Below are positions 2,086 through 63,701 of a stretch of 64,000 nt of DNA, piece after piece. The position numbers and the translations under genes are program-made. Within the stretch, counting starts at the first letter, position 1, and each line of letters begins with the position of its first letter. Source of the DNA: Mangrovihabitans endophyticus (GTDB lineage: Bacteria > Actinomycetota > Actinomycetes > Mycobacteriales > Micromonosporaceae); NCBI RefSeq assembly GCF_014646155.1, contig NZ_BMMX01000011.1, positions 1 through 64,000 of the forward strand, read 5' to 3'. The notes below the pieces were generated by a model. The model made no database searches and had not been told where the DNA came from. It saw only the letters and a list, made by a program, of their open reading frames with translations.

Positions 2086-2793
2086 CCGACGCCTTGTTCG
2101 GTCTCCACCACTGCCGGTCGTCGTCTTGCGCGGGCGACGACCAGGCCCCCCCAACCCAGAAACCTCCTGCGTGCCGACGTGCACGGTGCCACTACTGTCC
2201 ACAGGTTATCCACAACCTGTGCACGTGTCGGCGGTCGCTCCCCCGGCCGGATGGTAGGCAGGCTCCGGAAAGCCTGTATGGCGCGGGAAACAGGCTCACC
2301 GTGCCGAACGATTAACCGCCTCGTCCGGTTTTGGCCAGCTCGCGGAGGTATGTGAACTGTGCTGGAGACCAGCAAGCGGGCACGCTAACAGCGCTAGGCC
2401 CACTGCTTCAACTGCGGTATACCCGGGTGAGCGCTCGGGATGTGTGAAGATTCATGGGACGCGCAGAAAGACGGCCATCCGTGCCGATCTGAGATCATGC
2501 CCCGATCGTGAACGACCGTTCCGTCGGTGGGGGTTACGGCGCGTCGCCACCGCATAGTTGACCGGCCCATCGGCCCTGCGTAGGGTCGAGCGGTTGCTCC
2601 GGCCCGCTCTGCTAAGGTGGAGCGCGGTGTCGGCTGTCCTGCTGAGCGCATGCACTGCTTGATGTCGTGCACTGCATTCGTGCACCGCTGAGCATGGCTG
2701 GACCGGATGCATGCCAACCGCACCACGGACCGCTGTCGGTGCGCGACGGATGACGTTGCGCACCGAATCGCCTTCGAAAACGGAGTTCCTGAC
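2086..2793. other. dnaA/rpmH divergent intergenic region
   Basis: About 700 bp separate dnaA from rpmH. This must hold promoters for both operons. It carries one consensus and one near-consensus DnaA box at its dnaA end. The rest (about 2230-2780) has no convincing ORF; reading frames here are short or antisense. No promoter pair could be assigned with confidence. It could contribute to origin function, but only two boxes are visible, which is fewer than a normal actinobacterial oriC. Confidence 0.6.
2195..2226 (+). promoter_or_regulatory. DnaA boxes upstream of dnaA
   Basis: CTGTCCACA (2195-2203) is one base from the high-GC consensus TTGTCCACA. TTATCCACA (2206-2214) is the perfect box. Three bases later comes TGTGCACGT (2218-2226), a degenerate inverted box. 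Their position just upstream of the dnaA start suggests autoregulation of dnaA. Confidence 0.75.
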
Positions 2794-2931
2794 GTGAGCA
2801 AGCGCACCTATCAGCCGAACAACCGCCGGCGTGCCAAGACCCACGGTTTCCGGCTGCGCATGCGCACCCGCGCCGGCCGAGCGATCCTGGCGTCTCGTCG
2901 GTCCAAGGGCCGCGCCAAGCTGTCGGCCTGA
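2794..2931 (+). CDS. rpmH: 50S ribosomal protein L34
   Basis: This 45-residue, very basic protein begins [20 protein letters not shown], the L34 signature, and binds 23S rRNA in the large subunit. The GTG start at 2794 follows a CGGAG ribosome binding site; the longer upstream frame (from 2707) does not resemble L34. It is the first gene of the rpmH-rnpA-yidD-yidC-jag-rsmG block next to dnaA, an arrangement conserved across bacteria. Confidence 0.98.
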
Positions 2932-2968
2932 GCCGACGGCTGGTCCCGACCCGGATGCTCAGGTAGTC

Positions 2969-3325
2969 ATGCTGGCCGCCGCGCAGCGACTGCGGCGGAG
3001 CACCGACTTCGCCGCGGCGATCCGCGGTGGGCGGCGGGTCGGCCGGGGGACCGTCGTCGTGCACCTGTTCGTCCACGAGCCGGCGCAAGCCACCACGGCA
3101 CGCGCCGGCTTCGTCGTGTCCAAGGCGGTCGGCAACGCCGTGACGCGCAACCGGGTCCGGCGCCGCCTGCGCGAGGTGACGCGCGACCGATTGGCCGGCC
3201 TCCCGGCGGAGGCGATGCTTGTGGTGCGCGCGCTGCCCCAGGCCGCCTCGGCGACGTACGACCAGCTCGGCGCGGACCTGGATGCCGCGCTCACCGCCGT
3301 CCGCAGACCTCGGCGGCCGCGATGA
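2969..3325 (+). CDS. rnpA: Ribonuclease P protein component
   Basis: This is the protein subunit of RNase P, which matures the 5' ends of tRNAs. The 118-residue protein starts [20 protein letters not shown] and contains the RNR motif region [14 protein letters not shown] (about residues 52-65) that contacts the catalytic RNA. ATG 2969 is chosen because homology begins there; the frame is open upstream to 2831 but overlaps rpmH in another frame. The stop overlaps the yidD start by 4 bp (ATGA), so the two are probably translationally coupled. Confidence 0.95.
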
Positions 3326-3579
3326 GCGTCGTTGCCCGAATGCTCCGGGCGGCGGTCGTCGCGTACCGTCGTTATGTGAGCCCGGCATTGCCGGCCCGCT
3401 GCCGGTTTTATCCTTCGTGCAGCGCCTACGCCGTCGAGGCGATCGAGCGGCACGGCGCGCTGCGCGGGACCGGATTGGCGGTCTGGCGATTGCTGCGCTG
3501 CCATCCTTTCCACCCTGGCGGGTACGACCCGGTGCCTGACCCGATCCGTCACCGTCCTGCCGATGTGACTGGAGCGTGA
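3322..3579 (+). CDS. yidD: Membrane protein insertion efficiency factor YidD
   Basis: The 85-residue protein has the YidD core: an amphipathic N-terminal helix, the cysteine motif [10 protein letters not shown] (about residues 27-36) and [12 protein letters not shown]. YidD is associated with the inner face of the membrane and assists YidC-dependent insertion. It starts inside the rnpA stop and ends 1 bp before yidC, so the three genes look like one transcript. Confidence 0.95.
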
Positions 3580-3580
3580 A

Positions 3581-4642
3581 TTGAGTCTCGACTGGATCTA
3601 CTCCGCCATTTCGTGGATCCTCCTGCAGTGGCACGGCCTGTGGGATGCCATCGGCGTCCCCGACGGCCGCTTCCTGGGCACCAACTGGGCGTGGGTGCTG
3701 GCGATTGTGTGCCTGGTGGTGACGGTTCGCGTCATCCTGTTCCCGGTCTTCGTCAAGCAGATCAAGTCCCAGCGGGCCATGCAGGCACTCCAGCCCAAGG
3801 TCAAGGAGCTGCAGGAGAAGCACAAGGGCGACCGGGAAACGCTCCAGAAGGAAATGATGGAGCTGTACCGGACCGAGAAGGCGAACCCGCTGATGGGTTG
3901 CCTCCCGATGTTCCTGCAGATCCCGGTCTTCCTGGGTCTGTTCCACGTACTGCGCCGGCTCAGCCCGGACAACGGCGGGAAGACGCTGTACGGATGGACG
4001 GTCCAGCAGTTCGAAGACGCCACACACGCGTCGCTGTTCACCGCTCCGCTGCCCGCCAAGTTCGGCTCCACCGCTGAGGAACTGGCCGCCCTCGGGGCGA
4101 ACGGCACCACGGTGAAGATCATTGCCGGTGTGCTGGTCCTCATCATGATGACCACCACCTACCTGACCAGCCGCCAGATGATCCTCAAGACCGGTTGGGC
4201 CGAGGACCCGCAGCAGAAGATGATCCAGCGGCTGATGCTGTACGGCATTCCCCTGTCGCTGCTCGTCTCCGGTTCGCTGTTCCCGATCGGTGTGGTCATC
4301 TACTGGGTCACCAACAACCTCTTCACCCTGGGACAGCAGCAGTGGGTGCTGCGTAAGTACCCGCCGCCGCAGATGGCCGGGGCGAAGACCGCCGCCGCTC
4401 GTGGTGCGTCGTCCAACGGCAAGGGCGCCCCGGCGAAGCCGTCCGCGAAGGGCGCCCCGGCGAAGCCGGTCAAGGGCGGCCCGGTGCAGCCGTCCCGCAC
4501 CGGCGGGCTGTTCGGCCGGGGCAAGAGCGCGCCGGAGCCGCAGGGCCCGGTGCTGGACGCCAAGGCCCGCGCGCCCAAGCCGGGTGCCAAGCCGGTGAAC
4601 CCGAAGAAGGGCGCACGTCCCGCCGGCAAACCCAAGGGTTGA
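3581..4642 (+). CDS. yidC: Membrane protein insertase YidC/Oxa1 family
   Basis: YidC inserts and folds membrane proteins alone or with SecYEG. The 353-residue protein starts with TTG at 3581 after a GGAGCG ribosome binding site. It has the Gram-positive layout without a large periplasmic domain: a first membrane segment, the segment around WVLAIVCLVVTVRVILFPVF (about residues 38-57), a charged coiled loop (about 60-105), then the conserved segments around residues 106-125, 182-200 and 225-262. The tail (from about 265) is Lys/Pro/Ala-rich with repeated GAPAKP units and is probably cytoplasmic, where it may touch the ribosome. Confidence 0.96.
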   Translation: MSLDWIYSAISWILLQWHGLWDAIGVPDGRFLGTNWAWVLAIVCLVVTVRVILFPVFVKQIKSQRAMQALQPKVKELQEKHKGDRETLQKEMMELYRTEKANPLMGCLPMFLQIPVFLGLFHVLRRLSPDNGGKTLYGWTVQQFEDATHASLFTAPLPAKFGSTAEELAALGANGTTVKIIAGVLVLIMMTTTYLTSRQMILKTGWAEDPQQKMIQRLMLYGIPLSLLVSGSLFPIGVVIYWVTNNLFTLGQQQWVLRKYPPPQMAGAKTAAARGASSNGKGAPAKPSAKGAPAKPVKGGPVQPSRTGGLFGRGKSAPEPQGPVLDAKARAPKPGAKPVNPKKGARPAGKPKG

Positions 4643-47387: not shown

Positions 47388-48644
47388 TCACAAACGGTAC
47401 ACAGCGGGGTCATCCCGCGGTGTGATCGTGTCCGTGACGCGCGGCGTAAGCGCCCCCGCCCACACCAGCAGGACGGCGGGATAGAGCAGGTAGCCGAACC
47501 GGGTGGTGGGCATCAGCAGGATGGCGGCGAGCAGGCCGAGCCCGGCGTAGCGAGCGGCAGACGCGGCCGTGCGCGGCGGACGCCGTACGAGCATCGCCGC
47601 GACGACGGCACCGGCCGCCACCAGCAGTCCCGCGGCGACGTACCGGCCGCCCGGCAGCCCGGTGGCGATGAGGTATCCGGGAAAGGGTGATTGGGCGGGA
47701 CTGGTCACCACGCCGTGCCCGAGGGGAAAGCGGATCACGTTCTCCAGCACCGCGTCCGCGTCCACCAGCAGGGCCGGGATCAGCACCGCGACCGGCAGGC
47801 CGAGCGCCCAGGGCAGGTACCGGCGACCCTGGCCGGTGACCACCGCATGCACCGCCAGCACGACGACCATCGGCAGCGCGAACAGCTTCAGCGCGGCGGC
47901 GGCGCCGACCGCGACGCCGCAGGCCGCGAACCAGCCCCGCGCGCTCAGCGCCAAGGCCAGCACGCACAGCGCCACCACCGGCAGGTCGTCACCGCCGGTG
48001 GCCAAGGTGAGCGCGCAGATCGGCAGCACGGTGACCACCTGCACACCGCGGACCGGGTCCGCGACCGGGCGTGGTGCGGCGACGTTACGTCCGAGCAGCG
48101 CCGCGGCGCCGCCCACCGCGGCGACGGTGACGACGGCGAACCAGATCCGCGCATCCGTCCACCACAGATCGCCGAACCAAGCGCGTGGCAGCCCGAAGAC
48201 CGCCATGCCGGGCTGGTAGGGGTGGTACGCGAGAAGCCGCTCGCCGGGCGGTAGCGCGCGGATCGCATCCGCCCCGAGATACGGCGTGCCGGTGCCGGCC
48301 AACCGTTCTCCCATCTGCTCGACGACCAGCACCTCTTCCTGCGCGCGACCGGCGTGACCGGCGGCACGTTGCACCGCCTGGATCACCAGCGGCAGCGCGG
48401 TCACCAGCGCCCACACCGCCCATGTCTGCGCGGCGCGTGCCGCCGGCCGGCGCAGCAGGAGCCCGAGGGACACCACGATCAGGGCGATGAGATAACCCCA
48501 GAACGCCACGGCGCCCCACGCCCGGTGCGGAAGGAGCGTCGAGGTGATCGCGGTGAGCAGCGCGAAGGCGGCGGAGACCGCGTAGAGCCCGGCGTCGAGG
48601 GCGAGTCCTCCGGCGGCCCGGTCGAGCCGCGAGAGCCAGGTCAC
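47388..48644 (-). CDS. Membrane glycosyltransferase-like protein (GT87/DUF2029-like)
   Basis: A 418-residue protein with about 10 membrane segments and a loop LLAYHPYQPGMAVFGLPRAW (about residues 138-157) after the early segments, as in GT-C enzymes. Its GTG start overlaps the stop of the GGDEF-EAL gene (GTGA), and its stop abuts the zinc-ribbon gene, so the three form an operon. Substrate unknown. Confidence 0.7.
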   Translation of the reverse strand: MTWLSRLDRAAGGLALDAGLYAVSAAFALLTAITSTLLPHRAWGAVAFWGYLIALIVVSLGLLLRRPAARAAQTWAVWALVTALPLVIQAVQRAAGHAGRAQEEVLVVEQMGERLAGTGTPYLGADAIRALPPGERLLAYHPYQPGMAVFGLPRAWFGDLWWTDARIWFAVVTVAAVGGAAALLGRNVAAPRPVADPVRGVQVVTVLPICALTLATGGDDLPVVALCVLALALSARGWFAACGVAVGAAAALKLFALPMVVVLAVHAVVTGQGRRYLPWALGLPVAVLIPALLVDADAVLENVIRFPLGHGVVTSPAQSPFPGYLIATGLPGGRYVAAGLLVAAGAVVAAMLVRRPPRTAASAARYAGLGLLAAILLMPTTRFGYLLYPAVLLVWAGALTPRVTDTITPRDDPAVYRL

Positions 48645-51145
48645 GCGTGCAAGTGTGGCAGAGACCTGCCGTGCCCGGACGGGCGGCGACGGGACATCCG
48701 CACCACGGAGCCCGCCTCGTGCATGGGTTCGGCGAGCGCACCGGACCGTCCGGCGGTGCCGCGTTGCAGGGTTGCGGTGACCCGGTCAGCCCGCATCGGC
48801 CGGGCGAACAGATGTCCCTGCCCGGCCACACATCCCAGCTCGAACAACGCCCGCCGTTGGGGTTCGCTCTCCACCCCTTCGGCGACCACGACCAGGCGCA
48901 GGCTGCGGGCCAGGTCGACGGTCGACTGGATCAGCGCCGCCGCCTCCGGCGACGTCTCGACGGTCTGCACGAAACCACGGTCGATCTTGAGCTGGTGCAC
49001 CGGTATCCGGGACAGCACGGACAGCGACGAGACTCCGCTGCCGAAGTAGTCCAGGGCCAGCCCCACCCCGGCGCTTCGGAGATCGTCGAGGGCCCGCCCC
49101 ACCACGTCGAGCTGGCTGATGGTGAGGGTTTCGGCGAGTTCCAGGGTGAGCCGGTCCGGCGCGACGGCGTGCCGGCTCAGTCGTTCCAGGACGGCGTCCG
49201 GGAAGCCGGGATCGAGCAGGCTGCGGGGCGACACGTTGACCGCCACCGGCAGGTCGAATCCCGCCTCGCGCCAGATGCTCACGGCGGACAGGGATTGTTC
49301 GAGCACCGCGTCGGCGAACGCGGGTAGTTGGTCGGAGCGTTCCACCGTTTCCAGGAACCGCATGGGCGTGAGACAGCCGTGGTCCGGGTGCTCCCATCGG
49401 GCCAGGGCCTCGGCCGACACCACATCGCCGGTGCCCAGGTCGACGATGGGCTGGAAGTCCACCACGAACTCGCCTTCGGCGATCGCCCGGCGCAGTTCCC
49501 CGCCCAGCACCAGCCGGTTGACGTCGGCCGGGTCGCGGGAATGCGCGTACGTGGTGATCCGCCGACCGGACCGTTTGGCCTGGTACATCGCCACGTCGGC
49601 GCGCCGGAGCACCTCGGTGACGCCGCCGCTGCCGGGAAACAGCGCGATCCCGCCGCACGCCTCCACGGTCAGGCGCATGCCCTCCACCTCGACGCTGCTT
49701 TCCAGCTCGCGGAACAGCGTTTCCGCCCGGTGCGTGGCCATCGCGGGGGTCGGCAGGCCGGTGAACAGCACCGCGAACTCGTCGCCGCCGAGGCGGGCCA
49801 CCAGATCCTGCGGCTGGGCGGCACGCTGCATCCGCGACGCGACCTCGCACAGCACCAGATCGCCGGCTTGATGACCGAGCGTGTCGTTGACCTCCTTGAA
49901 GTGATTCAGGTCGATCAGCAGGAGGGCGAGGACACCCTCGTCGCCGCGGCCGGCGTACGCGTCGCCGGCGCGGTCCAGCAGCTCGCGGCGGTTGGCCAGC
50001 CCGGTGAGCGGGTCATGCGTGGCGTGGTAGGCATGCTCGTCGGAGACTCGTTCCAGTTCCGCGTACGCGATGGCGTTGCGGATGCTGGTGGCCAGCGCGG
50101 ACGCGAAGGTCCGCAGCTTGTACTTCTCCGACTGCTCCAGGCTGACCGAGGTGCGGAAACGCAGCCGCAACTCGCCCACCGGACCGGACCCCTCGTGCCC
50201 GCCGAGGACGGTGGTGATGGTGCAGCCGCCCCATTCCGGTGCCTGGCCCGGCGGACCGTCGTATGCCGCGCGGATCAGTCGGCCACCGGTGGCGTCGCGC
50301 AGTTCGATCTCCGCGTCGTCGGCGGAGAACAACTCCGGCGCCTGGACGACCGCGGATCGCAGCACCGTGGTCAGGTCGGTGTGGTTGAGACGATCGGTGG
50401 CTCCGGCGAGGCGCCGCCACGCCTCGTCGTCGGCGCGCCGTCGGATCCTGCTCTTGGTGGCCTGCTGCAGGGCCAGCACGGTCAGCGGCATGGCGACGAT
50501 GAGCCACAGATCCTTGCGCACCACCAGGGCGATGGTCACCGCCAGGGCGAGGTTGGCCACGCGCACCGCGGCGACGATGTCCCAGTTGCGGCGGGCGGAC
50601 TGCAGCCACGAGACGCCACTGGCCAACGCGAGGACGGTGTGCCCGAGCAGGTCGTCCACGATGGCGTAACACAGCGCGGCGGCGGCGAGGGCCAGAGAGA
50701 GCTGCGCGGGAGACGGGAGACCGGCCGGAGAGGACACCGCGGGCGTCACGCCGAACAGGGGCAGCGCGAGCGACGCGGCGGTGACCGCGAGCACTTCCTT
50801 GGCGACGTTGAAGGTGAGCTTCAGGAGGGTGCGCTGGGTCAGAAGCTGGGATGTCAGCATGCCGGCTGCGGCGGCGAGCACCGCCCACGGCCCAGGCAGG
50901 ATGGCGAGCGATATCAGGACCGCGCCGGAGGTGATGGGGATCAGTCGCAGTTCCGCGCGGAAGCGGATCTGAATGACCGGTCCCGCGGCGGCGGCGGTGA
51001 TGATCGCGCAGGCCAGCGGATAAATAGCGGTGCTGGCGGCGAGGCTGTCGAGCTCGAACACCGTCCACCCGAGGCACAAAAGGGCCCCAAACGCGACGAG
51101 ACCGACATACGGCCGAAGCCGCCTGTCGGTCCTCGCGTCGTTCAC
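48641..51145 (-). CDS. Membrane GGDEF-EAL protein (cyclic di-GMP turnover)
   Basis: An 834-residue protein with about eight membrane segments (1-230), a GAF-like middle part (about 245-360), a GGDEF domain with intact RLGGDEFAVL (451-460) and an EAL domain with SAEALARW (577-584). The EAL metal motif DDFGTG is DYFGSG here (D699-Y700), so phosphodiesterase activity may be weakened. The protein may make cyclic di-GMP and sense a membrane signal. It begins the operon ending with the zinc-ribbon gene. Confidence 0.92.
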   Translation of the reverse strand: MNDARTDRRLRPYVGLVAFGALLCLGWTVFELDSLAASTAIYPLACAIITAAAAGPVIQIRFRAELRLIPITSGAVLISLAILPGPWAVLAAAAGMLTSQLLTQRTLLKLTFNVAKEVLAVTAASLALPLFGVTPAVSSPAGLPSPAQLSLALAAAALCYAIVDDLLGHTVLALASGVSWLQSARRNWDIVAAVRVANLALAVTIALVVRKDLWLIVAMPLTVLALQQATKSRIRRRADDEAWRRLAGATDRLNHTDLTTVLRSAVVQAPELFSADDAEIELRDATGGRLIRAAYDGPPGQAPEWGGCTITTVLGGHEGSGPVGELRLRFRTSVSLEQSEKYKLRTFASALATSIRNAIAYAELERVSDEHAYHATHDPLTGLANRRELLDRAGDAYAGRGDEGVLALLLIDLNHFKEVNDTLGHQAGDLVLCEVASRMQRAAQPQDLVARLGGDEFAVLFTGLPTPAMATHRAETLFRELESSVEVEGMRLTVEACGGIALFPGSGGVTEVLRRADVAMYQAKRSGRRITTYAHSRDPADVNRLVLGGELRRAIAEGEFVVDFQPIVDLGTGDVVSAEALARWEHPDHGCLTPMRFLETVERSDQLPAFADAVLEQSLSAVSIWREAGFDLPVAVNVSPRSLLDPGFPDAVLERLSRHAVAPDRLTLELAETLTISQLDVVGRALDDLRSAGVGLALDYFGSGVSSLSVLSRIPVHQLKIDRGFVQTVETSPEAAALIQSTVDLARSLRLVVVAEGVESEPQRRALFELGCVAGQGHLFARPMRADRVTATLQRGTAGRSGALAEPMHEAGSVVRMSRRRPSGHGRSLPHLHA

Positions 51146-53914: not shown

Positions 53915-54333
53915 TGACCCTCGTCCAGACTGAGATCTCCGACCAGCCGCTGGACCCGGCCGTGCAGGAGAAGGCGGTGACCGATCACCGGGCCGGGGCG
54001 GTCGTCACCTTCCAGGGCGTGGTCCGCGACCACGACCACGGTCGCGGCGTGACCCTGCTGGAATACGAGGGGCACCCCAGCGCCGCGGCGATCCTGCGCA
54101 CGGTCGCCGACGAGATCGCCGCAGACCCGGACGTGTACGCCGTTGCGGTGGTGCATCGGATCGGCACACTGGCGATCGGCGACGTGGCCCTGGTCGCCGC
54201 GGTCTGTACCGCACATCGGTCGGCCGCCTTCGCCGCCTGCGCCAAGCTGGTCGACGAAGCGAAGGCGCGTCTGCCCATCTGGAAACGTCAGGTCTTCTCC
54301 GACGGCACCGACGAGTGGGTCAACTGTCCGTAG
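53911..54333 (+). CDS. moaE: Molybdopterin synthase catalytic subunit MoaE
   Basis: The large subunit of molybdopterin synthase, which takes sulfur from MoaD. The 140-residue protein has GAVVTFQGVVRDH and the catalytic-lysine motif LPIWKRQVF (about residues 121-129). ATG 53911 overlaps the moeA stop; a second ATG follows directly. The gene ends inside the convergent GT87-like gene by 14 bp. Its partner moaD is at 63702 on the minus strand. Confidence 0.95.
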   Translation: MMTLVQTEISDQPLDPAVQEKAVTDHRAGAVVTFQGVVRDHDHGRGVTLLEYEGHPSAAAILRTVADEIAADPDVYAVAVVHRIGTLAIGDVALVAAVCTAHRSAAFAACAKLVDEAKARLPIWKRQVFSDGTDEWVNCP

Positions 54334-55681
54334 TGCGGCGCGCCGCCGGAACCATCGGCAGGCGGTTGGGCTTGCTCCACCGGTCGACCGGGAACGCCGG
54401 TGCCGCACCCGGGCGATGCGGCAGCGCGTTCACCAGGAGGATCAGGGCCAGCGCGTACGCGTTGACGGTGATCGGTCCGGTGCTGGTCCACATCTCAGCG
54501 GTCGCGAACAACAGGAGGGTCGCGACGGCGGCGGCGGACACTCCCCCGCCCGGGAGGCGTCGCCCCCGCACCGGGCGGCGTGTCGCGGTCCGGTGGCGGG
54601 CCGCGACGTCGATGAGGATCAACAGTGCCGGGAAGACCCAGATCAACTCATGTATGCCGGTCACCGGGCCGACGATCGCCCCGGTCAAGCCGACCACCGT
54701 GAACGCGGCCACCTCGTCGCCCTCGGCGTGCGCCGACCGGGCCCGGATCAGTCCGACCGCGAGCAGCAACATCGCGAACGACGACCACAGCAGCACCGGC
54801 GTGGTGGCCGAGTCGTACAGCCGGGCGAGGACCCCGGCGAGCGATTGATTGTCCGGCCGGGCAATGCCACCGGTGCGGTCCAGCCGCCAGAAGACCTCGG
54901 CGAACCACGCCGCGGTCTCGTGCGGCGCGGCGACCAGCGCCCCGGCCGCCAGCGTGACGCTGGTGATCAGGGCGGTGATCATCGGTCGCCACTGCCTGGT
55001 CAGTCCCAGGTAGACGATGAACAGGCCGGATCCCATGGCGAACACCGTGGCCAGCCCGGTGCCGACGCCTGCCCATGCGCCGTTGGCCCAGCCCCGGCGC
55101 AACCGAGTGGCCGGCGCGGTGCCGTCTGCGGTCTGTGCCGCTGTCCGGCCCGGCCACCACGCCTCCCGGCTGCGCACCCACGCGCCCCGGCGCAGCGCCA
55201 CCACGTCGGCGACCAGCAACCCGAAGACCAGCAGATCGAGGGTGCCAAGCCCGAGCGTGGCACGCACCGGCTCGATCGCTACCGCCATCGCCACGGCGAG
55301 CAGCACGGCGATCCACCGCGGCCGGCCGTGCCGGCGTGCCATCGGCGCGGCCAGCGCCACCGCCGCCAGCACCAGCGCGGTGACACCGCACAGCGCGAGC
55401 AGCCAACCCGCGACACGCAACGGAACCCACGCCGAGGGCAGCAGGAAGAACGCGGTCGGCGGCGACATCGCGGTGCCGAGGTGGACGACGGGATCGCGGA
55501 ACGCGTACAGCCCTCCGCCGGACAGCCAACTGGTCAGCGCGCCGCGGTCGACGGCCAGCCCGGCGAAGCCGTACCGGTCCGCGACGGCCCCCAGCACCAG
55601 GACGGCGCCAACCATCGCCGCGACGGTCACTGTGGACCGGCGCACCGTCGTGTGTGTGCGCGTGCGTTCCAACACCGGCAT
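54320..55681 (-). CDS. GT-C membrane glycosyltransferase (DUF2029/GT87)
   Basis: A 453-residue protein with about 10 membrane segments and the early loop YAFRDPVVHLGTAMSPPTAF (about residues 61-80). A DxQSLAG-like motif (PDNQSLAGVL) fits the alpha-mannosyltransferase GT87 family. ATG 55681 is chosen because the upstream 57 residues are not hydrophobic or conserved. Probable role: polyprenol-phosphate-mannose-dependent mannosylation; acceptor unknown. Confidence 0.8.
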   Translation of the reverse strand: MPVLERTRTHTTVRRSTVTVAAMVGAVLVLGAVADRYGFAGLAVDRGALTSWLSGGGLYAFRDPVVHLGTAMSPPTAFFLLPSAWVPLRVAGWLLALCGVTALVLAAVALAAPMARRHGRPRWIAVLLAVAMAVAIEPVRATLGLGTLDLLVFGLLVADVVALRRGAWVRSREAWWPGRTAAQTADGTAPATRLRRGWANGAWAGVGTGLATVFAMGSGLFIVYLGLTRQWRPMITALITSVTLAAGALVAAPHETAAWFAEVFWRLDRTGGIARPDNQSLAGVLARLYDSATTPVLLWSSFAMLLLAVGLIRARSAHAEGDEVAAFTVVGLTGAIVGPVTGIHELIWVFPALLILIDVAARHRTATRRPVRGRRLPGGGVSAAAVATLLLFATAEMWTSTGPITVNAYALALILLVNALPHRPGAAPAFPVDRWSKPNRLPMVPAARRTTDS

Positions 55682-55775
55682 GGCGCGACCCCCATGTCGC
55701 TCTCGAACGGAGAGCTTAGACAGCCGCGCATGATCATGCGGCCCCGTACGGCCTAACGCGCATGCTTCGGGAAGG

Positions 55776-56318
55776 TCACCCCGGCAGTTTGCGTCCCGCG
55801 GTGGCGGACATCGCGGCAATCTTGGCATCGCGGCGAGCGGTGCGCACCGCACGGCGCACGCTGCGCTGCGACCGGCCGACCGCGTGGCTGGTGCGGTAGC
55901 GCAGACCCGGCTTGCCCTGCGTGTCGGCGGCTGCCAACAGCAAGCCGCCCAGCAGACCGAGGTTCTTCAGGAACTGGGTCTGCTGGGCGGCACGTTCGGG
56001 TTGCGGCAGCGCCCAGAACGGGTGACCCGCGACGGTGGTGGGGATCAGATTCGCGGCCAGCACGGCCGCCGCCGGCCGGGTGAATCTGCCGCCGGCCAGC
56101 ATCAACCCGGCCGCCACGTCGACGCCGGCCTTGATCCGCACCAGGCTGCGCGCATCGCTGGGCAGGCGCGGATCGGCCTTCTCGATCAGGGGACCGACCC
56201 GGTCGGTGACCCGCTTCGCGGTGTCGACCTTGGCATCCGGGTCGATCAGGTTGCGGGCTCCGCTGATCACGAAGATCGAGGCGAGCATGGCGCGCGCAGC
56301 GCTGCGTACGGGCTTCAT
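55776..56318 (-). CDS. DoxX family membrane protein
   Basis: A 180-residue protein with about four membrane segments in the DoxX layout; VRSAARAMLASIFVISGARN starts the first, and FLKNLGLLGGLLLAAADT is the last. The C-terminal 45 residues are very basic. DoxX proteins work with thiol-redox partners in some actinobacteria; no partner gene lies nearby. Confidence 0.85.
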   Translation of the reverse strand: MKPVRSAARAMLASIFVISGARNLIDPDAKVDTAKRVTDRVGPLIEKADPRLPSDARSLVRIKAGVDVAAGLMLAGGRFTRPAAAVLAANLIPTTVAGHPFWALPQPERAAQQTQFLKNLGLLGGLLLAAADTQGKPGLRYRTSHAVGRSQRSVRRAVRTARRDAKIAAMSATAGRKLPG

Positions 56319-58525: not shown

Positions 58526-59239
58526 ATGCCGCTGACTCTCGCCGTGGCCGCGGCCGTCTTCGGCGCGGCAGCCGCGGCCTTCCTCCCCCGCATCACCCAC
58601 CGGCTGGCGGTCCCGCCCGGCACACCGCCGCTCGCGGCGTGCCCGGACTGCGACGCGCCGTTTCCGCGAGGGCCGTCCGGCTGGCTGCGTGCCGGCGCCG
58701 GCTGCGCCTGCGCCGGGGCGCCCTGGCGCACCGTGCTGTGCGGCGCGGCGGTCGCCGTGACGCTGGCCGTGGGCTGGGCCCGCTCGCCCGCGCTCCCGGC
58801 GCTGCTGGTCGCGGGCGTGCTCGGGCTGCTGCTGGCCGAGGTCGACCGGCGTTGCCTGCGACTCCCCGATCCGCTGGTCGCCGCGCTGGCCGTCGTGGCC
58901 GGGTCGGCAGGGCTCGCCGGGTCGGCCGGTCGCGCGCTCGCGGCGGCGGTGCTCACCGGCGGCGGCTATCTGGCCGTGGCGGTGGCATCCGGCGGGCGGC
59001 TGGGGCTGGGTGACGTCAAGCTGGCCGCCGTGCTCGGCTGGCTGCTCGGCTCGGTGAGCTGGTCCGCGCTCGGGCTCGGGCTCGGGCTGGCGCACGCGAT
59101 CAACGGATCCGTCGCGGTCACCGTGCTGACCGCGCGCCGCGCCGGGCGCGACCACCGGCTGCCGCTGGGACCCGCCCTGCTCACCGGCGCGCTGGTCGCC
59201 TTGCTGGTGTGCGGGCCCGCCCCGATCAGAGCAGCCTGA
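58526..59239 (+). CDS. Prepilin peptidase (A24 family)
   Basis: A 237-residue membrane aspartyl protease that cleaves and may methylate type IV prepilin-like proteins. The catalytic aspartates are in LLAEVDRRCLRLPDPL (about residues 108-123) and GLGDVKLA (about residues 163-170). A CPDC pair (about 37-40) lies in an N-terminal loop. No pilin or Tad genes are visible in this window. ATG 58526; the frame upstream overlaps the LppU-like gene. Confidence 0.9.
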   Translation: MPLTLAVAAAVFGAAAAAFLPRITHRLAVPPGTPPLAACPDCDAPFPRGPSGWLRAGAGCACAGAPWRTVLCGAAVAVTLAVGWARSPALPALLVAGVLGLLLAEVDRRCLRLPDPLVAALAVVAGSAGLAGSAGRALAAAVLTGGGYLAVAVASGGRLGLGDVKLAAVLGWLLGSVSWSALGLGLGLAHAINGSVAVTVLTARRAGRDHRLPLGPALLTGALVALLVCGPAPIRAA

Positions 59240-62200
59240 GCTGACGCTCCCGGGGACGGGCCGGCGTGGTGTCGCCGAGGCGGTCGAAGAGGCCGCCGTC
59301 GATCGCGTCCAGGAACGGCGTCGGCGTGTGCTCCCGCTCGCTGCCGTGCCGGAACCGGCGCGCGGCATGCGTGACATAGAGGCGATCCTGGGCGCGGGTG
59401 AGCCCGACGAAGAACAACCGGCGCTCCTCGGCGACCTCGTCGTCGCCCGGCGTCGCCCCGGGCCATCGCAACGGCAGCAGATCCGCCTCGCAGCCGACCA
59501 GGAACACCACCGGGAACTCCAGGCCCTTCGCGGCGTGCAGGGTCAGCAGGTGCACCGCCTCGGCGCGCGGATCGAGGGCGTCCACCTCCGCGCCGGTCGC
59601 GATCTCCTGCAGGAAGTGGGACACGTCGTCACCCGTGCGCCGGGCCAACGGCATCAGCAGGTCCGCCGCCGCCCACACGTCCTCCGGCGCCATCTGATCG
59701 CCGTCCAGCGTCGGCGCCGCGTACCGCTGCGCGAGCACCTGTGCGGCCAGCTTGACGCGCGCCGGGAGCCCGCCTCCGAGGCCCGAGGCGTGCCGCAACT
59801 CGCGGGCGATCTCCTGCACCCCGGCGCGGGTGCGCAGCCGGTTGTGCGAACGCTTCTGCACCGGCACGCCGGCCCGCGACAGCGCCTCGACGATCGGGCC
59901 GGACTGGGCGTCGGTGCGGTACAACACCGCGATGTCCGAGAACGACAGCGTGCCGGGTGCCACCGCCCGCGAGTCCACCCGGCCGGAGTCCAGCGAACCG
60001 TGCGACAACCCGCCGACCAGCTCGTCGACGGTGCGCACCACGAAGTCGGCCTCGTCCGCGACGGACGCCGCGAAATAGCGGCCGACAAGCGGAGATTCCG
60101 GATCGAGACGGGCCGGGTCGAGGCGACGTCCGCGGACCAGGGTGGACGGCGCGATGGCCTGCACGGCGGCGGCCAGGATCGGCGCGGATGAGCGGTAATT
60201 ACGGGTGAGGCGCACCAGCCGCGCGTCGGTGAAGTCGGCGCTGAACCGCAGGAAGTACCGCACGTCGGCACCGCGGAACGAGTAGATCGCCTGGTCCGGG
60301 TCGCCGATCGCGCACAGGTTGCCGTCCGCCGGGCTGAGCAGGCGCAGCAACTCGTACTGGACCTCGTCGACGTCCTGGTACTCGTCCACGAAGATCCACT
60401 GCCAGCGCTTGCGGTATCGCTCCGCCAGGTCGGGCTCGTCGCGCAGCAGCGCCACCGGAAGCGCGATCAGATCGTCCAGGTCGACCAGGTCCTGCTGGCG
60501 CAGGATCTTCGCGTACGCCAGATCATCCGCGCCCGCCTGTTCCCGGGCCGCGGCGCGCTCCGCATCGTCGGCGATGCGCCAGTCGGCGCCCAGCCCGGCC
60601 GCCTTGGCGTTCTCACGCAGGATGGTCAAGCCGACCGCGTGGAAGGTGCCGACCGTGATGTCGTCCGCGACGTCGCCCATCAGGGCGGCCAACCGGGTGC
60701 GCATCTCCTCCGCGGCCCGCCGGGTGAAGGTGATCGCCAGGCAGCGTTCCGGGAACACGCCCAGTTCGGCGCAGAGGTAGGCGATCCGGTGGGTCAGTGT
60801 CCGCGTCTTGCCGGTGCCCGGACCGGCCACGATCAGCAGCGGGCCGCCCGGCGCAGACGCGGCGACGCGCTGCATCGCGTCCAGCCGGTCGAGCAGCCCG
60901 GTGCCCACCTCCTCCATGCCGGCCAGCATCGGTTCGAACGGCTCGTGCGGGGACGGCGGTGGCGGGATCGGAGGCGCCTTGGCCGGCGGCTCCTTTCGCG
61001 GTGTGGCCTTCGGCGCCGGGGCGCGGCCGACCGCGGGCTCGGTGCGGCGCTGCTGCGGCACCGGTGTCACGTCCGGCATGTCGAACAGCGTCTCTGCCTG
61101 TGCCGCACCGGGGCGTTTCACCTCGCCCGGCGCGAAGAGCGTGATCACGCCGTACTCGCCGTCGTAGCCCGGCACCCGGCGCACCTCGCCGCGGCGCAGC
61201 CGGGAGACCGCTTCCTGCAGATCCTCGCCGCCGGCCCGCCCGATCTCCGTGAGCGGGACGGTACGCAGGATGGAGAGTTCCGGGCCGAGGGCGGCGACCA
61301 GATGGTTGAGCGCACCGGCGACGGTCTTCGACTTGGCGCCCACACCGTTGATCTCGCCCAGGATCTCGTGCAACTGGATGAGGTGCTCCACGCTCTGCCG
61401 CCGGGGCTGCGCTCGTTCCCGGTCCGCGAGGTCCGCCACGCGGCTGAGCACACCGACGGTGAGCGGCTTGCCGCATTCCGGGCAGCGGCCACCGTGTTCC
61501 CGTGTCCGGGCCGGTTCCCAGTTCACGTTGCAGGCACGATGGCCGTCGGCGTGGTACTTGCCCTCCTCCGGGAAGAACTCGATGGTGCCGGCCAGTGAGC
61601 TGCCGGTCCGCATCGCCGAGTAGTCGGGCGTACCGGAGAACAACGTCGCCTCGCGGCCCAGCGCCGCGGGCGAATGCGCGTCCGAATTGGATACCAGATG
61701 ATATTGGTCCAAGCTGGACACTCGCCAGTTCATCTCCGGGTCCGATGACAACCCGGTCTCCACCGCGGTGATGTGCCCGGCGAGATCCGCGTAACAGTCC
61801 GCGATGGCGTCGAAGCCGGACTTCGAGCCGAGCGCGGAGAACCACGGCGTCCAGATGTGCGCCGGGACGAGATAGCTCTCCGGGTCCGACTCCAGCACGA
61901 TCTCCAGCAGGTCGCGGGAGTCCAAGCCGAGGATGGGCCGACCGTCGGAGGCCAGGTTGCCGATCCGGCCCAGGGCCGTGGTGACCCGCTCGGCAGCCGC
62001 GAAATCGGGCACGTAGATCAGGTGATGCACCTTGCGCGTACGGTCGTCGCGCTTGTAGATCGTGGAGATCTCCACGCTGAGCATGAACCGCGCGGCCGGG
62101 CTGCCCTGCACCGATCCGGGCAACTGCCGGGTGACCTCCGCTTCGTCGGCGAACCGATAGAGGCCACGCTCCGGCGTTTCCCGCAGGTTCTCCCGGAGAT

Positions 62201-62432
62201 GATCGAACCAGGCCGGGTGGGTGAAGTCCCCGGTGCCCAGCACCGCGATGCCTTTGCGGCGCGCCCACCAGGCGAGGGTGGGCAGCGTCAGGTCACGGCT
62301 GCAGGCACGCGAGTATCGGGAGTGGATGTGCAGATCCGCGACGTACGTGTCCGCGGCGACCGAGGACCCTGCGTTGTCCGAGGGCACGCGCTGCATCCTG
62401 TCATGTCCGTCCGTCCGCTCGCGCATCGCCAC
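59226..62432 (-). CDS. PHP nuclease (EndoQ-like)-UvrD helicase fusion protein
   Basis: A 1068-residue protein in two parts. Residues 28-440 match the TIGR00375/EndoQ group: PHP metal motifs DLHIHSRYSRACSRDL (33-48), TGDFTHPAW, PAHIWTPW and SNSDAHSP (247-254), and a zinc site C301, C317 and C320 (CPEC). After a Pro-rich linker (about 440-505) comes a full UvrD/Rep helicase: Walker A AGPGTGKT (536-543), FVDEYQDVD, GDPDQAIYSFRG, and VHLLTLHAAKGLEFP. EndoQ cuts beside deaminated bases. Fusion suggests helicase-linked repair. GTG 62432. It overlaps the prepilin peptidase end by 14 bp. Confidence 0.93.
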   Translation of the reverse strand: MAMRERTDGHDRMQRVPSDNAGSSVAADTYVADLHIHSRYSRACSRDLTLPTLAWWARRKGIAVLGTGDFTHPAWFDHLRENLRETPERGLYRFADEAEVTRQLPGSVQGSPAARFMLSVEISTIYKRDDRTRKVHHLIYVPDFAAAERVTTALGRIGNLASDGRPILGLDSRDLLEIVLESDPESYLVPAHIWTPWFSALGSKSGFDAIADCYADLAGHITAVETGLSSDPEMNWRVSSLDQYHLVSNSDAHSPAALGREATLFSGTPDYSAMRTGSSLAGTIEFFPEEGKYHADGHRACNVNWEPARTREHGGRCPECGKPLTVGVLSRVADLADRERAQPRRQSVEHLIQLHEILGEINGVGAKSKTVAGALNHLVAALGPELSILRTVPLTEIGRAGGEDLQEAVSRLRRGEVRRVPGYDGEYGVITLFAPGEVKRPGAAQAETLFDMPDVTPVPQQRRTEPAVGRAPAPKATPRKEPPAKAPPIPPPPSPHEPFEPMLAGMEEVGTGLLDRLDAMQRVAASAPGGPLLIVAGPGTGKTRTLTHRIAYLCAELGVFPERCLAITFTRRAAEEMRTRLAALMGDVADDITVGTFHAVGLTILRENAKAAGLGADWRIADDAERAAAREQAGADDLAYAKILRQQDLVDLDDLIALPVALLRDEPDLAERYRKRWQWIFVDEYQDVDEVQYELLRLLSPADGNLCAIGDPDQAIYSFRGADVRYFLRFSADFTDARLVRLTRNYRSSAPILAAAVQAIAPSTLVRGRRLDPARLDPESPLVGRYFAASVADEADFVVRTVDELVGGLSHGSLDSGRVDSRAVAPGTLSFSDIAVLYRTDAQSGPIVEALSRAGVPVQKRSHNRLRTRAGVQEIARELRHASGLGGGLPARVKLAAQVLAQRYAAPTLDGDQMAPEDVWAAADLLMPLARRTGDDVSHFLQEIATGAEVDALDPRAEAVHLLTLHAAKGLEFPVVFLVGCEADLLPLRWPGATPGDDEVAEERRLFFVGLTRAQDRLYVTHAARRFRHGSEREHTPTPFLDAIDGGLFDRLGDTTPARPRERQLRLL

Positions 62433-62462: not shown

Positions 62463-63701
62463 TTACCGGGTTCGCAGGTCGACGACGGTCACCTGTGGGG
62501 GCACACCCACCCGTACGGGTGGACCCCAGAAGCCCGCGCCGTCGGTGACGTAGACCGGCGTGCCGTCCACCTCGCCCAGGCCGGACACCACCGGCTGCTG
62601 CAGCCCGACCAGCAGGTTGAACGGCATCGTCTGGCCGCCGTGCGTGTGCCCGGAGACCTGCAGGTCCACCCCATAGGGCGCGGCCTGCTCCGCGGCCAGC
62701 GGCTGGTGGGCCATCAGGATGACCGGCCGGGTGGTGTCCCGGTCGCCGAGGGCGCGCCGGAAGTCCGGCGGGTCGCCGACTTGCGCGCCGCCGAGGTCGT
62801 TGACCCCGGCCAGGTCCAGGCCGTCGAGTTCGATGCGTTCGTTGCGCAGCGGCCGTACGCCGAGGCTCGCCACCTCCGTCACCCACTCCTGGTATCCGGA
62901 GTAGTACTCGTGGTTGCCGGTGACGAAGTATGCGCCGCGCCGCGACTCGATGCCGGCCAGCGGTTCGGCGAACCGTCCCAGCTCGGCGACGCTGCCGTCG
63001 ACGAGGTCGCCGACCACGCAGACGATGTCTGCCCCCACCGAGTTGATCACCTCGACGATCCGGCCCGCGTGCCGGGTGCCGGTCAGCGGGCCGAGATGGA
63101 TGTCGGAGACCACCGCCAGGCGGGTGCCGTCCATCGCGCGGGGAAGCTTCGCGATCGGGATCTGCACGCGATCGATGCGCGGACGGCTGAGCGCGGTCCG
63201 TACGCCGTACCCGGTGACGCCGGCGGCGGTCAGCCCGGCGAAGACGGCCGCCCCGCGGGCGAGCACGAGCCGCCGATCGATGCCGGGCGGCGTCGCCGCG
63301 CCGGATGACGTGTCCGCAGCGGGCGAGCCGATGGGGCCGGCGGGTCCGGTCGGCGCGTCACCGGAGGCGGGCATGCCGGCGGTGGTCATCGCCGGCGTAT
63401 CCGCCGAGCGGCGCCCCGCAAGCCGGATCACCAGGCGCGGGACCTCCAGCACCGCCAGGGTCAGGAGCAGGTAGAACGCACAGCCCAGCCAGAGATATCC
63501 GGGCCAGGCCAGCCAGGTGGCGTGGCCGGTGCGAGTGCCGATCAGGGTGGCCGGGACCAGCACGGCCAACAGCACGGCGATTCCGGTGCCGATCCGGCGT
63601 GCCGGTCCGGGGCGAAGCGTGTCCCGGACCAGCCGCTTCCAGAAGTACAGATGGATCAGGCCGATGACGGCGAAAGCCGTCACCACGACGGCGAGAACCA
63701 T
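62463..63701 (-). CDS. Membrane metallophosphoesterase
   Basis: A 412-residue protein with four N-terminal membrane segments (1-95), a linker, and a calcineurin-like phosphoesterase domain (about 165-410) with SDIHLGPLTG, GDLVDGS, GNHEYY and GHTHGGQ, all metal ligands present. A likely fifth segment precedes the domain (about 143-163). Substrate unknown. ATG 63701 directly follows moaD (stop 63702-63704), so the two may be co-transcribed. Confidence 0.88.
   Translation of the reverse strand: MVLAVVVTAFAVIGLIHLYFWKRLVRDTLRPGPARRIGTGIAVLLAVLVPATLIGTRTGHATWLAWPGYLWLGCAFYLLLTLAVLEVPRLVIRLAGRRSADTPAMTTAGMPASGDAPTGPAGPIGSPAADTSSGAATPPGIDRRLVLARGAAVFAGLTAAGVTGYGVRTALSRPRIDRVQIPIAKLPRAMDGTRLAVVSDIHLGPLTGTRHAGRIVEVINSVGADIVCVVGDLVDGSVAELGRFAEPLAGIESRRGAYFVTGNHEYYSGYQEWVTEVASLGVRPLRNERIELDGLDLAGVNDLGGAQVGDPPDFRRALGDRDTTRPVILMAHQPLAAEQAAPYGVDLQVSGHTHGGQTMPFNLLVGLQQPVVSGLGEVDGTPVYVTDGAGFWGPPVRVGVPPQVTVVDLRTR

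Follow-up and report, generated by a model that had tools for sequence, protein, structure and literature searches.

The window analyzed here, the first 64,000 nucleotides of contig NZ_BMMX01000011.1 from Mangrovihabitans endophyticus, carries a gene that joins a PHP nuclease of the Endonuclease Q (EndoQ) type to a UvrD-type helicase in one polypeptide (Table 1). An earlier note on this DNA had claimed such a single chain, and our analysis confirms it: one frame of 1068 codons holds both parts, with a disordered, Pro-rich linker between them. Also supported is the claim that the nuclease retains its catalytic set and that the superfamily 1A (SF1A) motor retains its key motif residues. Comparison of sequences and structures establishes the domains, catalytic residues and motifs of the protein, its co-inheritance, its split-gene forms and its conserved tail. 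The parts are known; their arrangement is widespread and apparently has not been described.

Table 1. The EndoQ-UvrD fusion gene, its parts and its upstream neighbor (positions are those of the window; pLDDT, predicted local distance difference test).
Feature	Position	Strand	Remarks
EndoQ-UvrD fusion gene	59226..62432	minus	GTG start, 1068 codons plus stop
EndoQ-type PHP nuclease part, residues 28-439	61116..62351	minus	
Probable structural zinc site, HxxC...CxxC, residues 298-320	61473..61541	minus	
Pro-rich disordered linker, residues 441-510	60903..61112	minus	pLDDT < 50
Junction motif QAETLFD, residues 445-451	61080..61100	minus	
UvrD-type SF1A helicase, residues 511-1056	59265..60902	minus	GPGTGKT 537-543, DEYQD 683-687
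Short 2B subdomain, about residues 866-950	59583..59837	minus	
C-terminal beta-clamp-type motif QLRLL, residues 1064-1068	59229..59243	minus	
Calcineurin-like metallophosphoesterase gene	62463..63701	minus	Pfam; directly upstream of the fusion, 30-base gap

The fusion is not special to the M. endophyticus genome. A contig scan gave at least 573 relatives confirmed by tblastn; the best 80 of these were kept as loci, and many of the others are possibly helicase-only. All but one (L085) show a near-full-length match, with identities falling from about 80% in Micromonosporaceae to 44% in Endomicrobium. The fusion, whose breadth of occurrence the earlier note proposed to check, is found in many phyla, including Actinomycetota, Planctomycetota, Acidobacteriota, Pseudomonadota, Myxococcota, Verrucomicrobiota, Elusimicrobiota and others. 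The rationale that such an enzyme suits a GC-rich genome fails, as the GC content of the 80 fusion loci ranges from 29.6 to 75.7%. Matches to TIGR00375 (NCBIfam) occur in 27 of 150 genomes of the window's order (26 in frames of at least 934 codons, one in a frame of 498), in 20 of 149 genomes of sampled Planctomycetota (nine frames of more than 1000 codons, ten of 439-557 and one fragment) and in 36 of 149 genomes of the phylum to which the Endomicrobium genome belongs (16 frames of at least 974 codons, 20 of 370-485); long frames were taken as fusions, with helicase content checked in fetched frames only. Within the window's family, the EndoQ domain is present in 16 of the 19 genomes listed, 15 times in frames of more than 1000 codons. 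Across the window's phylum, a search with the whole protein matched UvrD paralogs in 149 of 149 genomes and the EndoQ part in at least 4 of 149, the window's included.

Structure comparison shows that the nuclease part shares the overall fold of Endonuclease Q at about 28% identity, and H35, H37, D69, E121, H136, H192, G227, S229, D251 and H253 align to the active site of the Pyrococcus enzyme PfuEndoQ. D251 was paired with D193 of PfuEndoQ by counting along the alignment, and we take D193 to be a site residue. E121, H136 and H192 align with PfuEndoQ E76, H84 and H139, each of which gives a dead enzyme when mutated singly, and G227 and S229 align with G169 and S171, which help to exclude T and A (PMC8307549, the review from which the PfuEndoQ numbering is taken). 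When the window protein is aligned with the 80 loci, 80 of the 81 sequences agree at E121, H136, H192, G227, S229, D69, D251, H253 and all four zinc ligands. The remaining row is gapped there and can only be L085, which begins to match at residue 488. Two of the 81 carry Gln in place of H35. A zinc-binding subdomain is predicted after the PHP domain, with ligands of the form HxxC...CxxC and not CxxC...CxxC. We considered this form as a hallmark of the fusion and rejected it, because all 12 stand-alone bacterial EndoQs of the main group outside the fusion clade share it; it is a general trait of bacterial EndoQ.

The second part of the chain has the motifs and motor fold of a UvrD-family SF1A helicase, and the key residues of Walker A, Walker B and the other motifs are invariant across 38 aligned rows. 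It falls short of a PcrA or UvrD ortholog in score and in subdomains: its pcrA equivalog score is 371.9 bits against a cut-off of 911.2 (a cut-off reached by none of 14 genomes checked), it falls well under the uvrD cut-off as well, and it lacks the full 2B subdomain of such orthologs. In the window fusion the 2B stretch measures 102 residues and the 1B stretch 82, against 190 and 127 in the PcrA that this genome encodes and 118 and 132 in its UvrD2-type paralog. Among 51 fused rows (the broken frame of L140 excluded), 45 have a 2B stretch of 83-121 residues and six fusions from the planctomycete sample (L128-L130, L132, L133 and L135) have one of 147-225, while in four helicases encoded by split genes it shrinks to 34-39 residues. 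Variation from 34 to 225 residues within one clade offers natural material for helicase studies. Each of the 14 genomes checked, whether it has the fusion or a split pair, also contains a separate PcrA-type frame of 665-812 codons, so the fused helicase is an extra one.

Four of 40 regions fetched (L156-L159) have the two parts in adjacent genes: directly after an EndoQ frame of 428-433 codons, and overlapping its stop, comes a short UvrD-type frame of 518-536 codons. The nuclease tree, a quick search with long branches near PfuEndoQ, unites all 52 fused, four split and six lone rows in a single clade (SH-aLRT 100) that excludes the remaining lone EndoQs; one of the six lone rows (L145) is cut by a contig end. 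A careful helicase tree, built from 57 of the 77 rows of a quick tree with 20 dropped, places 35 fused and three split rows in a single clade (UFBoot 98, SH-aLRT 92), apart from 19 PcrA/UvrD-type rows. Every one of these 19 stems from a genome that also has a fusion or split pair, and the window's genome supplies two. Fused L132 lies outside the clade in the quick helicase tree and inside it in the careful one, and all helicase trees exclude L140 and two repeat copies of the window genome's own paralogs. Because both domains form clades, nuclease and helicase have travelled together; because the split forms sit among the fused ones, either fission or repeated fusion may have produced the pattern. 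Two kinds of lone protein deserve separate mention. L139 (genome G263, 2571-4064), from the window's own family, encodes an EndoQ of 498 codons that ends in DPELFD at the place of the junction motif, and shows no helicase in the 9 kb fetched. Its EndoQ clusters with that of Prauserella (SH-aLRT 87), so this form without a helicase may have arrived by transfer. Four deep-branching lone PHP proteins of the planctomycete sample (L146, L147, L165 and L166) keep the catalytic residues, lack the zinc Cys at position 301 and have a short insert there, and they probably have another function.

The chain ends in a motif resembling peptides that bind the beta sliding clamp. The textbook form of such peptides, QL[S/D]LF, has been revised to Q-phi-x-[L/M]-[F/L] (PMC13254535), and QLRLL of the window protein fits the revised consensus as a predicted clamp-binding peptide. 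A relaxed Q-x-x-L-[L/I/F] ending, represented elsewhere by QLDLF, QLSLF and QLELF, which closely resemble the textbook peptide, is found in 78 of 81 sequences; the pattern itself counts 79, from which we set aside L073 as an accidental match at a contig end, and the other two rows are a broken frame (L045) and a contig end (L053). A first, narrower pattern, which omitted endings in I and V and forms such as QETLF, caught 47 of 81. In a diverse representative set, leaving out four cut or broken rows (L053, L073, L136 and L140), the motif lies within the last ten residues in 45 of the 48 rows that end at a genuine stop codon; the exceptions are L067, with QLTLF 14 residues before the end, L138, which ends in QLDFSLFK, and L142, which has a different end, probably through a frame shift. 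By comparison, the pattern occurs in 108 of 5846 internal 15-mers, and it is absent from the paralog helicases (0 of 20 by eye, and 0 of 17 of these by pattern). Among lone EndoQs, 11 of 22 have a C-terminal Q motif: 11 of 12 in the main outside group (for example QLSLF, QLELF and QMKLF), none of four deep rows and none of six inside the fusion clade. Among the four split pairs, QLALL closes three of the EndoQ genes and EEPSLF the other one; the four helicase genes end in QLSLF, QLSLFN, QPELF or QPTLFDL.

A second short motif, [L/M/F/W]F and often LF[DE], lies at the fusion junction, mostly 15-22 residues past the EndoQ core and close to where stand-alone bacterial EndoQs usually carry their own terminal clamp-type motif. 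It is present in 49 of 52 rows with a wider pattern; a narrower one finds it in 88 of 94 sequences. That narrower pattern hits 841 of 7870 26-mers taken as background, and elsewhere in the linker 8 of 210. This motif is a possible second, weaker clamp contact, and as evidence it is weaker than the C-terminal tail.

We think it moderately probable that the fusion is a dedicated bacterial repair enzyme in which EndoQ nicks DNA 5' of a deaminated or abasic nucleotide and the attached helicase peels off the damaged strand, with the chain docked on the beta clamp. The substrates, clamp binding, loading strand, direction, downstream enzymes and meaning of the short 2B are what we infer in this model. 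UvrD-type motors have a 3'-to-5' polarity. The EndoQ part would find a deaminated or abasic nucleotide, flip it into its pocket and nick the strand just 5' of it. EndoQ incision generates a 3'-OH end and leaves the damaged nucleotide with a 5' phosphate (PMC4357722), and the downstream strand would then begin with the damaged base. A 3'-to-5' helicase could load at the nick on the intact strand and move downstream, in the direction of repair synthesis; the damaged strand, displaced as a 5' flap, would be left to a polymerase held on the clamp, a flap nuclease and ligase. Nicking followed by unwinding would be a geometrically sound order. The whole chain may be held on the beta clamp by its QLxL[LIF] tail, perhaps with a further contact through the LF[DE] motif at the domain junction, which would put both activities where the polymerase works. 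Given the clamp-type tail, the enzyme would be expected to work with the beta clamp, and hence with a polymerase, which makes doubtful the description in the earlier note of a 'self-contained' machine. A 2B this short suggests that the motor is hardly autoinhibited and that location, not dimerization, switches it: deletion of 2B converts Rep monomers to active unwinding enzymes (PMC13238157, PMC6158625). The small 2B is compatible with such a docking-switched motor and is no proof of it. More tentatively, and in our judgment rather improbably, a clamp-docked excision pathway could operate across many phyla without a glycosylase or UvrABC, in which one chain nicks and unwinds, its two peptides may fill both pockets of the clamp dimer, and incision, displacement and hand-over to the polymerase proceed from one place.

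Several observations weigh against this model. The TIGR00375 score of the fusion is 138.3 bits, under a curated cut-off of 326.6; the cut-off is reached in 0 of 150, 0 of 149 and 0 of 149 sampled genomes and in 2 of 14 control genomes, so stand-alone EndoQs in those samples miss it too. The distribution is patchy, as with the 27 of 150 genomes of the window's order, and no neighbor gene shared across phyla was recognized (67 loci). The small 2B is neither unique nor general, given that the UvrD2-type paralog is nearly as short and six fusions are long, and Rep without 2B is poor at displacing bound proteins (PMC6158625). The strict tail form Q[LIVA]x[LM][FL] is met in only 45 of 81 sequences, the commonest miss being QLRLI, which is also the commonest ending (27 sequences); the six lone EndoQs of the fusion clade all lack a terminal Q motif; and the Y-family polymerases of the window's genome, taken as a positive control, yielded no clamp motif in three frames that are possibly cut. 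The junction motif may be decayed or something else, because it is missing in three rows (L058, L067 and L129) and a Gln stands close before it, as in QAETLFD of the window, in only 14 of the 49 rows that have it. Lastly, in the sample of one phylum, 34 of the 36 genomes that carry EndoQ also match uracil-DNA glycosylase (UDG); there the enzyme can be no more than a supplementary pathway, unless it deals with other lesions. As 20 of 20 EndoQ-lacking genomes of the same sample also match UDG, the idea that the fusion replaces UDG is unsupported. The only genomes of these 56 without UDG, G515 and G507 (loci L156 and L157), both have a split pair, and split genomes G538 and G556 have UDG; these are too few to weigh.

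No match was found among 72,556 plasmids to the whole protein at E 1e-60 or to the EndoQ part at E 1e-3, none to the EndoQ part among 50,697 phage records, and a scan of viral contigs, able to detect close relatives only, found none either; a mobile origin was therefore rejected. Among the 80 loci, 44 have a homolog of the metallophosphoesterase; all of these belong to Micromonosporaceae, and in 43 it lies immediately upstream of the fusion. In the window the two genes are perhaps co-transcribed. The confinement of the metallophosphoesterase to this family led us to reject it as a conserved operon partner. Genes downstream of the fusion recur in 28 to 38 of the 80 loci. Clusters that appear beside the fusion across phyla probably consist of frames within the fusion gene, be they antisense, overlapping or unfiltered. 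Elsewhere in the window lie a GGDEF-EAL protein (48641-51145, minus strand) and, near its gene, two GT87 glycosyltransferases (47388-48644 and 54320-55852, both minus).

Other functions can be envisaged for a chain of this composition. A motor could tow the nuclease along a single-stranded template or behind the clamp during replication, with EndoQ inspecting for uracil and hypoxanthine before or just after copying and unwinding of the nicked strand being secondary. The clamp-type tail, the flexible linker and the retained motor motifs would suit such scanning, as would the cleavage of U and Hx in single-stranded DNA by EndoQ (PMC11354406), but a template cut ahead of the polymerase would be expected to break the fork, and sequence gives nothing to tell scanning from the nick-then-unwind order; we consider this unlikely. 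Somewhat less probable still is a nuclease shifted to a different lesion, such as ribonucleotides, oxidized pyrimidines or flap and gap junctions, with uracil and hypoxanthine as minor substrates. The low TIGR00375 score and the co-occurrence of UDG would fit, and PfuEndoQ itself cuts oxidized pyrimidines (PMC8307549); however, G227 and S229, the counterparts of PfuEndoQ G169 and S171, are the same in 80 of 81 fusions with one gap, and the catalytic residues other than H35 are equally conserved (80 of 81).

It is also conceivable that the fusion serves anti-phage defense, as a Gabija-like pairing of nickase and UvrD directed against uracil-containing or otherwise modified phage DNA. Its helicase part matches the GajB models of PADLOC (best 5.3e-72), a possible antiviral role of Bacillus EndoQ has been mentioned (PMC8307549), and the patchy distribution would be in keeping with such a role. 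Yet the PADLOC matches listed (25 of 52) are all to UvrD-like helicase models (GajB, RTasHel), the three neighbors tested have no or weak matches and none to GajA, and the plasmid, phage and viral-contig searches given above found no relative. The recurrent downstream genes, the presence of EndoQ in 16 of the 19 family genomes listed, and a clamp-type tail better suited to host repair also argue against defense, which we regard as very unlikely. Our lowest estimate falls on two enzymes that merely share a start codon, in which fusion fixes stoichiometry and the halves serve separate pathways. Lone EndoQ rows within the clade, such as L139 in the window's family, would be expected in that case (six in number, including the truncated L145), but co-inheritance with a helicase type that forms a clade apart from 19 paralog rows, and the overlap of the frames where the genes are separate, make it highly improbable.

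EndoQ has been described as mainly archaeal, with a few bacterial homologs (PMC4357722), and the open-licence literature, to the extent that its text is accessible, shows stand-alone EndoQ in archaea and some bacteria and contains no description of a helicase-fused form that we found, although domain listings in databases, which this search did not cover, may display the architecture. What emerges is a form in many bacterial phyla, actinomycetes among them, that bears a helicase, retains the catalytic site and ends in a clamp-type tail, through which the role of the fusion becomes testable; the conserved tail and the LF[DE]-like junction motif, both putative clamp ligands, are new here. Judged by its sequence, the fusion looks like a widespread and so far unstudied DNA-repair machine. 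If it works as modeled here, it would be a one-protein alternative to base excision repair and would provide a handle on what follows EndoQ incision in bacteria, since the same protein would supply strand displacement and a link to the clamp.

The closest known relative is Endonuclease Q itself (PfuEndoQ, TkoEndoQ and Bacillus EndoQ), which shares the fold, catalytic residues and zinc subdomain and likewise has a clamp-binding tail, directed to PCNA in archaea. TkoEndoQ binds PCNA through its C-terminal motif, and beta-clamp motifs have already been noted in bacterial EndoQ homologs from Bacillus and Desulfovibrio (PMC4858679). In contrast to the archaeal enzymes, the fusion has His in place of one zinc Cys; in contrast to EndoQ generally, this family is fused to or paired with a helicase, and its main clamp-type motif has moved to the helicase end. 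Compared with UvrD, PcrA and Rep, the fused helicase belongs to a separate clade, has 1B and 2B shorter than those of PcrA, and carries a clamp-type tail not seen in 20 paralogs. Gabija combines a DNA-nicking enzyme, GajA, whose nuclease is of the OLD/TOPRIM type, with a UvrD-like helicase. The fusion helicase shares the likeness to GajB, but PADLOC analysis of the protein and three neighbors revealed no GajA beside it, hence no GajA-GajB adjacency, and there is no sign of mobility. RecBCD, AddAB and AdnAB likewise join a UvrD-type motor to a nuclease, in their case of the RecB type and not PHP. These complexes act at double-strand ends, whereas the fusion is proposed to act on base lesions. 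RecB binds the beta clamp (PMC13254535), as the fusion is predicted to do.

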